Below are positions 3,023 through 6,903 of a stretch of DNA of 45,240 bases, one piece after another (the first letter of the stretch is position 1; every line of letters begins with the position of its first letter). Origin of the DNA: Acidimicrobiales bacterium (GTDB lineage: Bacteria > Actinomycetota > Acidimicrobiia > Acidimicrobiales > RAAP-2); the NCBI GenBank assembly GCA_017883135.1, contig JADGOE010000018.1:1-45240 (forward strand). The letters are read 5' to 3'. The notes under the pieces are model-generated. The model ran no database searches, had not been told where the DNA came from, and worked only from the letters and a program-made list of their open reading frames with translations. The translations under genes were made by a program, and so were the position numbers.

Positions 3023-4594
3023 ATGAGTACGGGGGTCGGTATGGCAATCCAGGCGCAGGATCAAGCAGACCGGCTTGCCGACCCGGTGCCCGTCGCACTC
3101 AGGCTGCGCCCGCCGGAACGTACGGGCCTGGCCGAGCGCTTCGACGCCTCGGATCCCTCGCCGGGCCTCGACGTGGCCCGCAACCCGCACGTCGCCCGCC
3201 TGTTGCACAACCGCAAGCTCCAGTTCTTCCTGATCCTCCCGAACCAGATCGTCTTTTGGACCGTGATCTTCGTCGGACTGCTCGGCACCGCCGTGCCCGG
3301 GTTGAACTTCGGGGCCGCGATCACCTGGTACGTCTGGTTCTGCCTCGTCTTCGTGATGATGGTGGTGGTCGGCCGGGCGTGGTGCGCGATGTGCCCCTTC
3401 GGAGGTTTCGGAGAGTGGATACAGCGGCGGACCTTCTGGAAGCGCACCCAGACGACCCTCTCCCTCGGTCGGAAATTCCCCGAGCCGCTCGCCAACCTCG
3501 GTTTCGTGCTCCCGGTGGCGTCCTTCCTGCTGCTCACCTGGATCGAGGAGTACTTCAACATCGCCGGGCCGGGCGATCCGGCGTCGACCAGCTTCATGGT
3601 GATCGGCATCGTCGCCTCGGCCCTGGTGTTCTTCTTGGTCTTCGAACGGCGCACCTTCTGTCGTTACATCTGCCCGCTCACCTCGCTCATCGGCACCGTC
3701 GGGTCGATGGGCACGGTCGCCGGGTTCCGCACCCGCGACCGCGAGAAGTGCCTGAACTGCAAGACCAAGGACTGCATGCGGGGCGGCGACCAGGGCTTCG
3801 GGTGCCCCTGGTACACCTGGCCGGCAAGCGCTGACTCGAACCTGTACTGCGGGCTGTGCACCGAGTGCTACAAGTCCTGTCCGGAGGAGAACGTCGGACT
3901 GTTCCTGCAGAAGCCGTTCACTTCGGTCGTTGCACCCCGCCGCCGGCGAGGCGACGTGGCATGGGCGATCGCGCTGCTGTGGGGACTCGTGCTCTACCAG
4001 CAGATCAACTTCGTCAGCGCCTACAACTCACTCGACGGATGGCTGAACACCCACCTGCACATCCCCCACTACCCCGACCCGGTCGCCTACCTGGGGTTGA
4101 TCGCCATTCTGGCGCTCGTCACCGCCGCAGTGACCCGGGGTATCGCAGCGGTCTGTGCCCGGCGCGACATCGAGTTCAAGCACCCCGGCAACTTCGCCGA
4201 CAAGGGCTCGCGATTCCGTGCCTACTTCATTCCGATCACGTACGGCCTCATCCCGGTGGTCGGTGCGGACTACTTCGCCCGCCAGCTGCCCAAGTTCTTC
4301 AAGAGCTCACCCCGGGTCGTACCCTCCGTGCAGCACATGTTCGGTTCCGCCGGTGTCCACTCGTGGCTCTACAACGTCCACTTGCTCTCGGACCCACGGA
4401 TCATCGTCGTCCAGGTGGCGGTGATCGCCCTCGGCACAGTCGCAGCCCTTTGGGCGACGTGGCGGATCGCCACCCGCGAGCTCATTCCCGTCAGCCGCAG
4501 TGCGTTCGCCGTGCGGGTCACCACCAGCGGGCTGGTGCTCCTCTGCGGAGCTGTCGCGGCTGAACTCTACGTGGTGATGCAGGCAGCGAACTGA
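3023..4594 (+). CDS. polytopic membrane protein with multiple 4Fe-4S motifs (NosR/NapH/CcoG-like)
   Basis: This is a 523-residue membrane protein, probably an electron conduit between a quinone or membrane donor and a soluble Fe-S partner. It has about 8 hydrophobic segments. Two short motifs typical of NosR/NapH membrane ends are present, CAMCPFGG (Cys121/124) and CRYICP (Cys213/217). A cytoplasmic cluster region follows: CLNCKTKDC...C (Cys243, 246, 251, 261) and CGLCTECYKSCP (Cys276, 279, 282, 286). No periplasmic FMN-binding domain of NosR is visible, so this is not classical NosR. The first ATG (3023) is used; an ATG at 3041 is possible. The next gene, 62 bp downstream, encodes a soluble ferredoxin-oxidoreductase fusion that is the obvious partner. 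The substrate is unknown. Confidence 0.85.
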   Translation: MSTGVGMAIQAQDQADRLADPVPVALRLRPPERTGLAERFDASDPSPGLDVARNPHVARLLHNRKLQFFLILPNQIVFWTVIFVGLLGTAVPGLNFGAAITWYVWFCLVFVMMVVVGRAWCAMCPFGGFGEWIQRRTFWKRTQTTLSLGRKFPEPLANLGFVLPVASFLLLTWIEEYFNIAGPGDPASTSFMVIGIVASALVFFLVFERRTFCRYICPLTSLIGTVGSMGTVAGFRTRDREKCLNCKTKDCMRGGDQGFGCPWYTWPASADSNLYCGLCTECYKSCPEENVGLFLQKPFTSVVAPRRRRGDVAWAIALLWGLVLYQQINFVSAYNSLDGWLNTHLHIPHYPDPVAYLGLIAILALVTAAVTRGIAAVCARRDIEFKHPGNFADKGSRFRAYFIPITYGLIPVVGADYFARQLPKFFKSSPRVVPSVQHMFGSAGVHSWLYNVHLLSDPRIIVVQVAVIALGTVAALWATWRIATRELIPVSRSAFAVRVTTSGLVLLCGAVAAELYVVMQAAN

Positions 4595-4656
4595 CCGGTG
4601 ATGGCGATGTTCCCAGCACCGACAGCCAGAGTCCGAATCGGCAAAGAGGAGCCACG

Positions 4657-6903
4657 ATGACCCTGACAGAAGAGAACAAGGTTGCAGCCGGCACCGATCG
4701 GCCCTTCGCGCGGGTCCTCACCGACCGGTGTGCCGGCTGCCAAGAGTGCGTCATCCGCTGCCCGACCGGGACGCTTTCGATGGATACCGAGCGCTGGGTG
4801 GCTCTCGCTTCCGGCGATCTCTGCGTCGGGTGCCGCCAGTGCGAGCGCACCTGCCCGTTCTCGGCCATCGTGGTCGAAGGGCCGCTGATGGTAGCGCCCC
4901 GATTCGAGCCCAAGCCGGTCCATCCCGAGCACCTGCTCGGAGACATCGGCGAGATCCGTTCCGGACTTGCCGGTTGGCCCGAAGCGCTCGCTGAGGCCGA
5001 GCGCTGCCTACAGTGCCCCGATCCGACATGCGTGCGGGGCTGTCCCGCGCACAATGACATCCCTGGCTTCATTGGCGCTGTCCGGGACCACGACCTCGAG
5101 GGAGCGCACGAGATCCTGCGACGCACCTCGGTCCTGCCCGACATCTGCTCGCGGGTGTGCAACCAGTCCGCCCAGTGCGAAGGGGCATGCACCTGGTCCC
5201 TCGCAGGCGGGACCCCGGTGTCCATCGGCCGCCTCGAACGCTTCATCGCCGACAACCTGGCCGTCCCGCCACCCGCGCCCGCTCCGGCCACCTCGGAGCT
5301 GTCGGTGGGGATCATCGGTTCGGGGCCAGCCGGGGCGGGCGCTGCGTGGGACCTGCTCGAAGCAGGTGCCTCGGTGACCGTCTACGAGAAGGAGTCCACC
5401 CCGGGGGGTCTCTGCATCTGGGGGATCCCCGACTTCACCTTGCCCGAAGCGGTTGCCACCAGACCCTGGCGCCAGCTCAGCGAGGCAGGCCTGGACCTGC
5501 GTTGCAACACCACGATCCGACCGGGGGACCTCGACGGGCTCCTCGCCACCCACGACGCAGTCATCGTGGCCCACGGGGCCGGCATGCCCCTGCGGCTCCC
5601 GGTTCCCGGTGCTGATCTCGACGGCGTCGTCGATGCGACCATGTTCCTGCAGGGGGCAAAGGCTGCACTCGAAACGGGTGGCGACCGCGCAGGATTCTGC
5701 GCCACGCTGGGACTCACCGGCGACACCGGCGACACCGGCGACACCGGCGTACAGGGACGCCCGGAGCCCGAGGTCCTGGTCCTCGGCGCGGGCAACACGG
5801 CCATGGACGTGGCCCGAACCGCGCGGCGGCTCGGCCTTCGGGCGACGTGCGTCGACTGGCTCGACGAGCGGTTCGCACTGGCTCGTCCCGACGAGCTCGA
5901 CGAGGCCCGCCTCGAAGGCGTCGAGGTCCGCTTCTCGCGTACCCTCACCGCGCTGCACGGAGCAGCGGGCCGGGTGGTGCGCGCCGAGCTCGCCCTCACC
6001 ACGCAGGAGCGGGCCGACCAACGCCCGAAGGTGCTGTCGCGGAACCCCGAGGAGCTCGAGGTCCAACTGGTCGTGATGGCCATGGGCTACCGCTCCGATC
6101 CGGCGTTCTCCGACGCGCTGCCCGACACCCCCGTGCGCCGCGAGGCGACCGGTGTGCCCGATCGGCGGTGGACGGCAAGCGGCATCCTCGCCAACCGTGC
6201 CTCGGCCTTCGCCCACCGAAGCCCGGTTGGCACGCTGGCGTTGGGGCGCGAGGTCGCGCTGTGGGCTGCCGCCCTGCCGGTCGGCGAGCGGCTGTGGGCC
6301 GTCGGCGACGCGCTGACCGGGCCGGCCACCGTGGTCGAAGCCATGGCCCAGGGCCGACGTGCTGCGGCTGCGGTGCTCGATTCCCGACCGGCGCGACCGG
6401 GTCGCTCGGAGCCCGCGTGGTCCAGTCGGCAGCGGCGAGTGCTCGTCTGCTACGAGAGCGTCGGGGGCAAGACCGCTCGCGCAGCGGAGGCGGTGGCCGA
6501 TGGTTTCGCGGCACAGGGTGACCAGATCCGTGTGCTGCCGATCGCCAAGGTGGGGAGCGAGGAGCTGGCCGCGGCCGACCTGGTGATGATCGGCACCTGG
6601 GTCGAGGGCTTCGTGGTCGCCGGCGTGGGTCCGGCCAAGGCGATGCGCAGTTGGCTGGCCGGACTGCCCCGGCTCGCCGGCAAGCCGGTCGGGATCTTCT
6701 GCACCTTCGGCGTGTCGCCCAAGGGTGCCCTTCGCTCCATGCGACAGGCCATCGAAGCAAAGGGTGCGGTGGTCGTCGCCCAGGCCGCATTCGGGCCACG
6801 GGAGCTCGGTGCGAAGCCGGGCGTCTTCGGGCCGGCCGCATTCGCTGACGAACTCGCACGCAAGGCCACTATTCGGGAGGCGCAACAAGTACTTGTCGAG
6901 TAG
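4657..6903 (+). CDS. ferredoxin / GltD-like NAD(P)-FAD oxidoreductase / flavodoxin fusion
   Basis: This 748-residue fusion joins three redox modules. Residues 20-70 are a two-cluster ferredoxin (Cys25/28/31/35 and Cys56/59/62/66). Residues 115-180 are the Fe-S domain seen in glutamate synthase small subunit (Cys117/120/125/129 and Cys164/168/174/178). Residues 215-575 are the GltD-type two-dinucleotide-binding oxidoreductase, with FAD motif GSGPAG at 221 and NAD(P) motif GAGNTAMD at 377. Residues 595-735 resemble a flavodoxin (VLVCYESVGGKTARAAEAV). A GDT tripeptide is repeated three times at 355-363 in a linker. The expected role is electron transfer between NAD(P)H and low-potential carriers. 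The start has a good AGAGGAG ribosome-binding site. The gene is co-oriented with the membrane Fe-S gene. No glutamate synthase large subunit is nearby, so glutamate synthesis is unlikely. Confidence 0.85.
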   Translation: MTLTEENKVAAGTDRPFARVLTDRCAGCQECVIRCPTGTLSMDTERWVALASGDLCVGCRQCERTCPFSAIVVEGPLMVAPRFEPKPVHPEHLLGDIGEIRSGLAGWPEALAEAERCLQCPDPTCVRGCPAHNDIPGFIGAVRDHDLEGAHEILRRTSVLPDICSRVCNQSAQCEGACTWSLAGGTPVSIGRLERFIADNLAVPPPAPAPATSELSVGIIGSGPAGAGAAWDLLEAGASVTVYEKESTPGGLCIWGIPDFTLPEAVATRPWRQLSEAGLDLRCNTTIRPGDLDGLLATHDAVIVAHGAGMPLRLPVPGADLDGVVDATMFLQGAKAALETGGDRAGFCATLGLTGDTGDTGDTGVQGRPEPEVLVLGAGNTAMDVARTARRLGLRATCVDWLDERFALARPDELDEARLEGVEVRFSRTLTALHGAAGRVVRAELALTTQERADQRPKVLSRNPEELEVQLVVMAMGYRSDPAFSDALPDTPVRREATGVPDRRWTASGILANRASAFAHRSPVGTLALGREVALWAAALPVGERLWAVGDALTGPATVVEAMAQGRRAAAAVLDSRPARPGRSEPAWSSRQRRVLVCYESVGGKTARAAEAVADGFAAQGDQIRVLPIAKVGSEELAAADLVMIGTWVEGFVVAGVGPAKAMRSWLAGLPRLAGKPVGIFCTFGVSPKGALRSMRQAIEAKGAVVVAQAAFGPRELGAKPGVFGPAAFADELARKATIREAQQVLVE

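Follow-up and report, generated by a model that had tools for sequence, protein, structure and literature searches.

A NapH-like membrane iron-sulfur protein and a ferredoxin-GltD-flavodoxin fusion form a conserved two-gene unit in Acidimicrobiales with a predicted role in NADH-linked electron transfer

What might a cell do with a single polypeptide that joins a 2[4Fe-4S] ferredoxin, a GltD-type flavoprotein core with iron-sulfur sites of its own and a flavodoxin, and that is encoded directly behind a polytopic membrane iron-sulfur protein? The question is raised by two genes in a 45,240-nucleotide contig (JADGOE010000018.1 of assembly GCA_017883135.1; our contig C26, hereafter the window) from the 2.96-Mb, 126-contig genome of an Acidimicrobiales bacterium. 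We propose that the pair constitutes a redox-regulated, membrane-anchored NADH oxidoreductase linking nicotinamide adenine dinucleotide (NAD(H)), the quinone pool and low-potential one-electron carriers (flavodoxin or ferredoxin), a reading in which we place about equal measures of confidence and doubt. As judged from its sequence, the two-gene unit is a new combination of modules that are each already known, and its function is predicted; a literature search, covering the passages cited here, turned up no account of the pair.

The two genes lie on the forward strand, 62 bp apart (Table 1), and the initial annotation, which had placed a NapH/NosR-like polytopic protein without the flavin mononucleotide (FMN) domain of NosR directly upstream of a single fused polypeptide, was confirmed by the open reading frames (ORFs) and by a Fer4_5 match without one to FMN_bind. 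The fusion proved neither rare nor unlinked from the membrane gene. In a scan of named genomes, from which the best 80 of 227 confirmed stretches were kept (all counts out of 80 refer to these), every one of the 80 fusion loci has a match to the membrane gene upstream and in the same orientation. The gap between this match and that of the fusion is at most 400 bp in 77 loci and 674-787 bp in the other three (L097, L101, L102), which in L102 is due to divergence at the C-terminal end of a single long membrane ORF. Nearly all of the 80 are metagenome-assembled genomes (MAGs) labelled Acidimicrobiaceae, Acidimicrobiales, Actinomycetes, Actinobacteria or Actinomycetota, the exceptions by label being three Acidobacteria, one Mycobacteriaceae and one Chloroflexi. 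Searched against 298 genomes of the order, the membrane profile found matches in 62 (43 of 172 genera), hereafter the module genomes; Fer4-GltD adjoins the membrane gene in 61 of these, the contig ending first in the other (G509), and 38 of 40 module loci extracted show the two side by side, two being cut. Every fusion match above 300 bits in 198 genomes drawn from the class falls in the same order, and among 296 genomes of the phylum a single one outside the class (G383) has a close pair, lacking the flavodoxin, with none in the 26 other genomes of its own class. Distant relatives of the membrane protein in the phylum (147-278 bits; L124-L128) have no Fer4-GltD beside them, and a plasmid search returned 12 records with distant relatives, all below 60% identity, the best of which (Deinococcus, 25%) is not beside an annotated GltD gene. 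The cultured Acidimicrobium ferrooxidans (G014) holds the module, with the pair at about 1,517,821-1,521,374 of its genome. The unit is conserved in many Acidimicrobiales, and because its architecture recurs in dozens of genomes, chance or misassembly is ruled out.

Second copies were also encountered. Contig C17 in the same bin as the window (G000; locus L111, 1-4948) carries the end of a membrane gene, the fusion, an F420 gene and an Rrf2 gene; since its DNA is far closer to that of MAG L042 (98.4% identical) than to the window (84%), this contig is more likely to be foreign, or from another strain, than to reflect a duplication. Five of the 62 module genomes have a second membrane plus Fer4-GltD pair. 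In L116 (5733-9181) and L197 (5352-9064) a diverged second pair without flavodoxin lies near an NrfD-type membrane protein, and in L197 also near a multi-cluster iron-sulfur protein (Fer4_11); another MAG (L096) has a gene of the NrfD type (12009-13535), 1.7 kb downstream from its fusion gene.

The three-part composition claimed for the fusion is borne out by Pfam, by structural modelling and by fold matches. At the threshold used for both proteins (E <= 0.001), Pfam finds Fer4 domains, Fer4_20 (116 bits) and Pyr_redox_2; the flavodoxin of the window's own protein falls below the Pfam cut-off (Flavodoxin_3, 22.1 versus 27.5 bits). A profile of 66 aligned relatives, however, matches a clostridial flavodoxin (E 6e-10), and 47 of the 66 match Flavodoxin_1 at E <= 0.001. 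In an AlphaFold model of the whole fusion (mean predicted local distance difference test, pLDDT, 91.4; predicted template modelling score 0.92), residues 593-740 superpose on the archaeal flavodoxin 5wid (Z 20.7; root-mean-square deviation, rmsd, 1.9 Å over 138 residues) and residues 77-579 on NfnI-L (5jfc_L; Z 39.5, rmsd 2.3 over 434 residues, 35% identity). Conservation was read from 128 distinct Fer4-GltD relatives, or 95 for the flavodoxin: all 16 cysteines of the four [4Fe-4S] sites are invariant (128/128), the phosphate-binding loop S-x-G-G-x-T keeps G604 and T606 in 93 of 95 each, and the flavodoxin loops at about 601-606, 646-651 and 683-688 are well conserved. The C-terminal region, whose flavin-binding capacity had been singled out as a point to check, is on the modelled fold and these loops a flavodoxin domain. 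A short in-frame repeat encoding GDTGDTGDTG lies in a low-confidence linker of the fusion (window ~5719-5748).

In the membrane protein Pfam detects Fer4_5 only, in two stretches; FMN_bind, the hallmark of NosR, was not found at the same threshold, nor was a CXXCH heme motif, and no extracytoplasmic cofactor domain was seen by Pfam, motif and helix inspection. The AlphaFold model (mean pLDDT 77) has four helices, a 2[4Fe-4S] domain and then about five further membrane helices; conservation was assessed in alignment A4 of 59 rows. As the Cys motifs and the cluster domain sit in K/R-rich segments after helices 2 and 4, they are probably on the cytoplasmic side, the same side as the fusion. With cofactor sites that are probably cytoplasmic and with no FMN_bind, CXXCH or extracytoplasmic domain found, quinone would be the likeliest membrane partner of this protein. 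Its NapH scores lie below the cut-offs (TIGR02163, 29.3 versus 213.05 bits; NF007013, 33.1 versus 234), and a fold search with the membrane model gave no match at E <= 0.001 (best Z 5.8), which is no evidence of a new fold.

We then turned to the nucleotide site of the GltD core. Aligned with 5jca_L, NfnL residues Y323-R324-R325 correspond to D400-W401-L402 of the fusion; among the 128 relatives, 117 have D, 6 have E and 3 have R at position 400, and 122 have W and 4 have R at position 401. Sites for NADH usually carry an acidic residue where this strand ends, and an Arg pair at this site would hold the phosphate of NADPH. Because of the D or E at the Y323 position and the W at the R324 position, we predict NADH rather than NADPH as the nucleotide of the core. 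Of the initial annotation's reading, in which NAD(P)H could be coupled to membrane and low-potential carriers, the conserved membrane-flavoprotein pair is supported, and the D-W-L signature refines the predicted nucleotide to NADH.

Based on these features we posit that hydride from NADH would pass to the flavin adenine dinucleotide (FAD) of the GltD core, from which electrons would leave singly by way of the Fer4_20 cluster pair and the 2[4Fe-4S] domain at the N-terminus. They could then reach the iron-sulfur clusters of the NapH-like protein, for transfer to or from menaquinone, and also the FMN of the tethered flavodoxin or a soluble ferredoxin. What the analysis shows is the architecture, the linkage, the flavodoxin fold, the invariance of the cofactor residues and, at the level of sequence, an NADH-type site; the cofactor loading, the quinone partner, the direction of flow and any energy coupling in this scheme we infer. 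GltD-like units have been proposed, as a class, to pass electrons of NAD(P)H through [4Fe-4S] clusters to a partner (PMC8097209).

The flavodoxin is the variable part of the unit. It is carried by 95 of the 128 distinct Fer4-GltD sequences, part of the remainder being truncated loci. Among complete loci, those lacking it branch at the base of the tree (L116, L196, L197 and the outgroup L131) and in several separate clades (L113/L175-L177; L114/L170/L179/L180; L190-L192; L168; L110), so that the membrane protein plus Fer4-GltD is probably the older core, with the flavodoxin as an add-on gained early and lost several times. Going by the clades with complete loci, about five losses after a single gain would suffice, with independent gains as an alternative; a Fitch count of 17 changes is inflated, some leaves scored as flavodoxin-less being truncated loci. 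Free flavodoxins of the same kind occur in three genomes without a fused copy (G059, G499, G527) and in a few genomes that have one; the idea that a free flavodoxin complements the flavodoxin-less cores was dropped, only 3 of about 14 such genomes having one. In the first 30 module genomes a free flavodoxin was found in the four with a second paralogous pair versus none of the 26 others; over all 62, by hand count, this became five of five versus 5 to 7 of 57, two of them doubtful at contig edges, which makes it a weak observation.

Five module loci (L032, L131, L171, L190, L192) have a short ferredoxin gene close to the pair, as found by a scan of short ORFs for an exact CXXCXXCXXXC, which we take to be a ferredoxin motif and which would miss other ferredoxins. 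As they accompany three of 19 flavodoxin-less loci (L131, L190, L192) and two fused pairs (L032, L171), that is, loci with and without fused flavodoxin, there is no clean swap of one carrier for the other, and the idea of a ferredoxin replacing the flavodoxin was rejected. The ferredoxins of L190 (2877-3275), L192 (1547-1945), L032 (2771-3193) and L171 (3872-4273) are alike, with 132-140 residues and an extra Cys-rich C-terminal part; L190 and L192 belong to one genus, and in both the gene is directly upstream of the membrane gene. In L131 (2289-3723; G383) the ferredoxin gene follows the pair, and an opposite-strand ORF resembles, by eye, the beta subunit of F420-reducing hydrogenase.

Genome-wide associations add a hint. 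A 2-oxoacid oxidoreductase, counted when scoring above the KorA-like band (E < 1e-58), is present in 33 of 62 module genomes versus 36 of 236 others (Fisher p 3.5e-9), with such a match also in the genome that the window comes from (E 3.1e-70). Within the seven families with both states readable the Mantel-Haenszel odds ratio is 5.1 (p 0.02), in strata read by hand from which 31 unlisted genomes without a match may be missing. RuBisCO is likewise more frequent (15/62 versus 13/236; p 5e-5). Ancestry confounds both associations, which are no more than a hint at a function together with ferredoxin or flavodoxin. A specific link to autotrophy was set aside, the window's own genome having no RuBisCO match, and so was one to nitrogenase: of two PF00142 matches in that genome, one is short (38 of 271 positions, 30.7 bits, cut-off 25) and was not taken as NifH, and the other is below the cut-off of 25.

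Several points weigh against an NADH oxidoreductase linking quinone with flavodoxin or ferredoxin. About 14 of the 62 module genomes have no fused flavodoxin in a genome-wide domain search (G509 could not be judged), and 11 of these have no flavodoxin of this kind at all at E <= 1e-4, so the flavodoxin is not an outlet that every unit needs; linkage to a ferredoxin gene is exceptional, and the 2-oxoacid oxidoreductase association may reflect ancestry. The NADH prediction comes from sequence only, with Arg at the D400 position in 3 of 128 relatives. For the membrane protein, quinone binding is inferred, and its model is of moderate confidence (pLDDT 77) and matches no solved fold.

Table 1. Positions in the window of the two-gene unit, its domains and motifs, and other genes
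Feature	Position	Strand	Basis and remarks
PAS histidine kinase	190..1887	-	HisKA_3, HATPase_c, PAS; listed ORF probably too long at its start, where it overlaps the next gene
NarL-type response regulator	1586..2401	-	Response_reg, GerE
NapH/NosR-like polytopic membrane Fe-S protein, 523 aa	3023..4594	+	ORF listing, Pfam Fer4_5, AlphaFold helices
First Cys motif, C121-A-M-C124-P125 (CX2CP), end of helix 2	3383..3397	+	C121, C124 and P125 invariant, 59 rows
Second Cys motif, C213-R-Y-I-C217-P218 (CX3CP), after helix 4	3659..3676	+	C213, C217 and P218 invariant, 59 rows
2[4Fe-4S] domain, Cys 243, 246, 251, 261, 276, 279, 282, 286	3749..3883	+	All eight invariant, 59 rows
Fusion of ferredoxin, GltD core and flavodoxin, 748 aa	4657..6903	+	ORF listing, Pfam, AlphaFold, fold match
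N-terminal 2[4Fe-4S] ferredoxin domain, ~residues 20-75	4714..4881	+	Fer4 matches; 8 Cys invariant, 128/128
Fer4_20 domain, residues 109-200, two [4Fe-4S] sites	4981..5256	+	116 bits; 8 Cys and E194 invariant, 128/128
GltD/NfnL-type FAD- and NAD(H)-binding domain, ~residues 214-580	5296..6396	+	Fold match, residue counts, alignment to 5jca_L
C-terminal flavodoxin domain, ~residues 593-740	6433..6876	+	Profile, Pfam of relatives, fold match
F420H2-dependent reductase family protein	6933..7550	+	PF04075, 71 bits; 29 bp after the fusion
Rrf2-family regulator	7657..8730	-	PF02082, 106 bits
Chlorite-dismutase-family protein	11458-12228		Pfam scan
CtaG-type assembly factor	20054-20956		Pfam scan
Heme-copper oxidase subunits I and II	35109-37830		Pfam scan

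A bolder version of the proposed oxidoreductase, which we advance tentatively and consider unlikely, is that NADH oxidation, coupled via the NapH-type membrane protein to the reduction of quinone, powers reduction of the covalently tethered flavodoxin and of ferredoxin, the FAD splitting electrons without the Nfn arginine; such a new energy-coupled respiratory module would do in Acidimicrobiales what Rnf or Fix do elsewhere. True Nfn-like bifurcation, in which the GltD FAD splits the electron pair of NADH between quinone, via the membrane protein, and flavodoxin or ferredoxin, uphill, would be a distinct case. NfnI-L chains are the closest solved relatives by fold, and high-potential (membrane) and low-potential (flavodoxin) outlets are both present by architecture. 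E194, at the position of the Glu ligand of the proximal cluster in NfnL (E126; PMC9503767), is kept in all 128 relatives, and R410, at the position of R333, which is described as conserved in bifurcating enzymes only (PMC12921514), is Arg in 126, with one Ala and one gap. However, R201 of Nfn, which hydrogen-bonds to N5 of FAD, a condition considered crucial for efficient bifurcation (PMC10482914, PMC12921514), is replaced by T261, and this position is Thr in 116, Val in 6, Ser in 3, Ala in 2, Glu in 1 and Arg in none of the 128; moreover, GltD-like cores are also part of enzymes for which bifurcation is not known, for instance glutamate synthase and dihydropyrimidine dehydrogenase (DPD; PMC8097209). 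Because the N5-contacting residue is never conserved, the bifurcating device envisaged by the initial annotation is weakened in its Nfn form, and we regard it as unlikely.

In the 40 loci with full flanks, an Rrf2 gene is near the pair in 31, a histidine kinase in 31 and a response regulator in 32; all three occur in 24, and Rrf2 or the kinase in 38. Rrf2 regulators often hold an iron-sulfur cluster, and redox or iron-sulfur control would fit this. The window's Rrf2 regulator has three cysteines spaced CX6CX5C and a long C-terminal extension; the spacing in IscR and NsrR is CX5CX5C. A TTGACTTG box and CTACGGT repeats lie upstream of the membrane gene (window 2940-3020), with related boxes (TTGACGTA, CTAC...GTAG) recurrent upstream in relatives, where TTGACGT boxes and CTAC...GTAG dyads appear to recur. 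The F420-type gene, once suggested as a further branch, loses that standing: it adjoins the pair in just 9 of 80 loci (some of which end early) and in 4 of the 40 with full flanks. As the window holds a heme-copper oxidase and a chlorite-dismutase-family protein, the host likely respires aerobically.

The prominence of the Rrf2-family regulator and the NarL-type sensor pair, the commonest neighbors, would also suit a stress-protective or metal-reducing NADH dehydrogenase, in which the membrane protein, presumably in the manner of CcoG, is charged by NADH and protects iron-sulfur enzymes or reduces metals or nitric oxide. NapH and NosR indeed take part in electron transfer to reductases (PMC5928378), a parallel that counts in its favor. 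We nevertheless find this improbable, as the membrane protein shows no extracytoplasmic cofactor domain and, beyond the regulators, each neighbor family is limited to at most 12 of the 80 loci.

Reverse electron flow, in which quinol (for example from Fe(II) oxidation) or reduced ferredoxin or flavodoxin reduces NAD+, would accord with the module being held by the iron oxidizer A. ferrooxidans and with its enrichment among RuBisCO genomes (15 of 28, versus 47 of 270 without RuBisCO). Yet RuBisCO is unmatched in the window's genome and in 47 of the 62 module genomes, and no ion-pump subunit turned up among the neighbor families or locus gene lists, so that we deem this direction quite unlikely.

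That the fusion arose by chance, or is simply the small subunit of a glutamate synthase, is a practically negligible prospect: the best NCBIfam match of the fusion is gltA, NADPH-dependent glutamate synthase (TIGR01316), at 242.4 bits against a cut-off of 471.75, the NADPH motif is replaced, architecture and partner are conserved, and no large subunit turned up among the neighbor families or could fit any window ORF (longest listed, 775 aa). The earlier statement that the fusion comes with no glutamate synthase holds accordingly; the companion statement on terminal reductases holds for the surroundings of the pair, where the Pfam scan of 17 window proteins showed none, but the window does encode the heme-copper oxidase about 28 kb away.

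Acidimicrobiales occur in acid mine drainage and peat, and to our knowledge little is known of the ways in which they supply low-potential electrons. A module that does link NADH, quinone and flavodoxin or ferredoxin would match Rnf and FixABCX in task while being made from different parts, and it would bear on whether a GltD-type FAD can split electrons without an N5-contacting arginine; because a cultured organism, A. ferrooxidans, holds it, the question is testable.

Among known systems, NfnL/NfnB, the large subunit of NADH-dependent ferredoxin:NADP oxidoreductase (P. furiosus, 5jca/5jfc), shares with the fusion the Fer4_20 plus FAD/NAD(P) core and the E126 and R333 equivalents, but the fusion has Thr for R201 and D-W-L for Y-R-R, and adds an N-terminal ferredoxin, a C-terminal flavodoxin and a membrane partner. 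No NfnS was found among the 17 window proteins scanned or the recurrent neighbors, the rest of the genome not having been searched. Like the fusion, AegA and YgfT of E. coli, which presumably have no flavodoxin, place a ferredoxin-like domain N-terminal to the GltD core. The fusion scores far below the NCBIfam cut-offs of both (182 versus 1003 and 172.2 versus 1154 bits). This one-chain arrangement of AegA and YgfT is described together with the occurrence of GltD units in other multi-domain proteins, among them DPD, which joins a GltD core, a 2[4Fe-4S] domain and an FMN domain in one chain (PMC8097209); the FMN domain of DPD is a catalytic one, like that of dihydroorotate dehydrogenase, and not a flavodoxin, and its domain order differs. 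The membrane protein shares with NapH and NosR four helices, two Cys-Pro motifs and two [4Fe-4S] clusters (PMC5928378, PMC9012536), but its first motif is CX2CP and not CX3CP, further helices follow the clusters, and the FMN domain is missing. A fused Nfn relative, AadN, has been implicated in feeding low-potential electrons (PMC9973337). Pfam finds no ETF domain in either protein of the pair, and the genome was not searched for Fix or Etf; in its proposed partners, NADH, quinone and ferredoxin or flavodoxin, the module nevertheless resembles FixABCX/EtfABCX (PMC10734219), and by analogy it may work as these or Rnf do, from unrelated parts.

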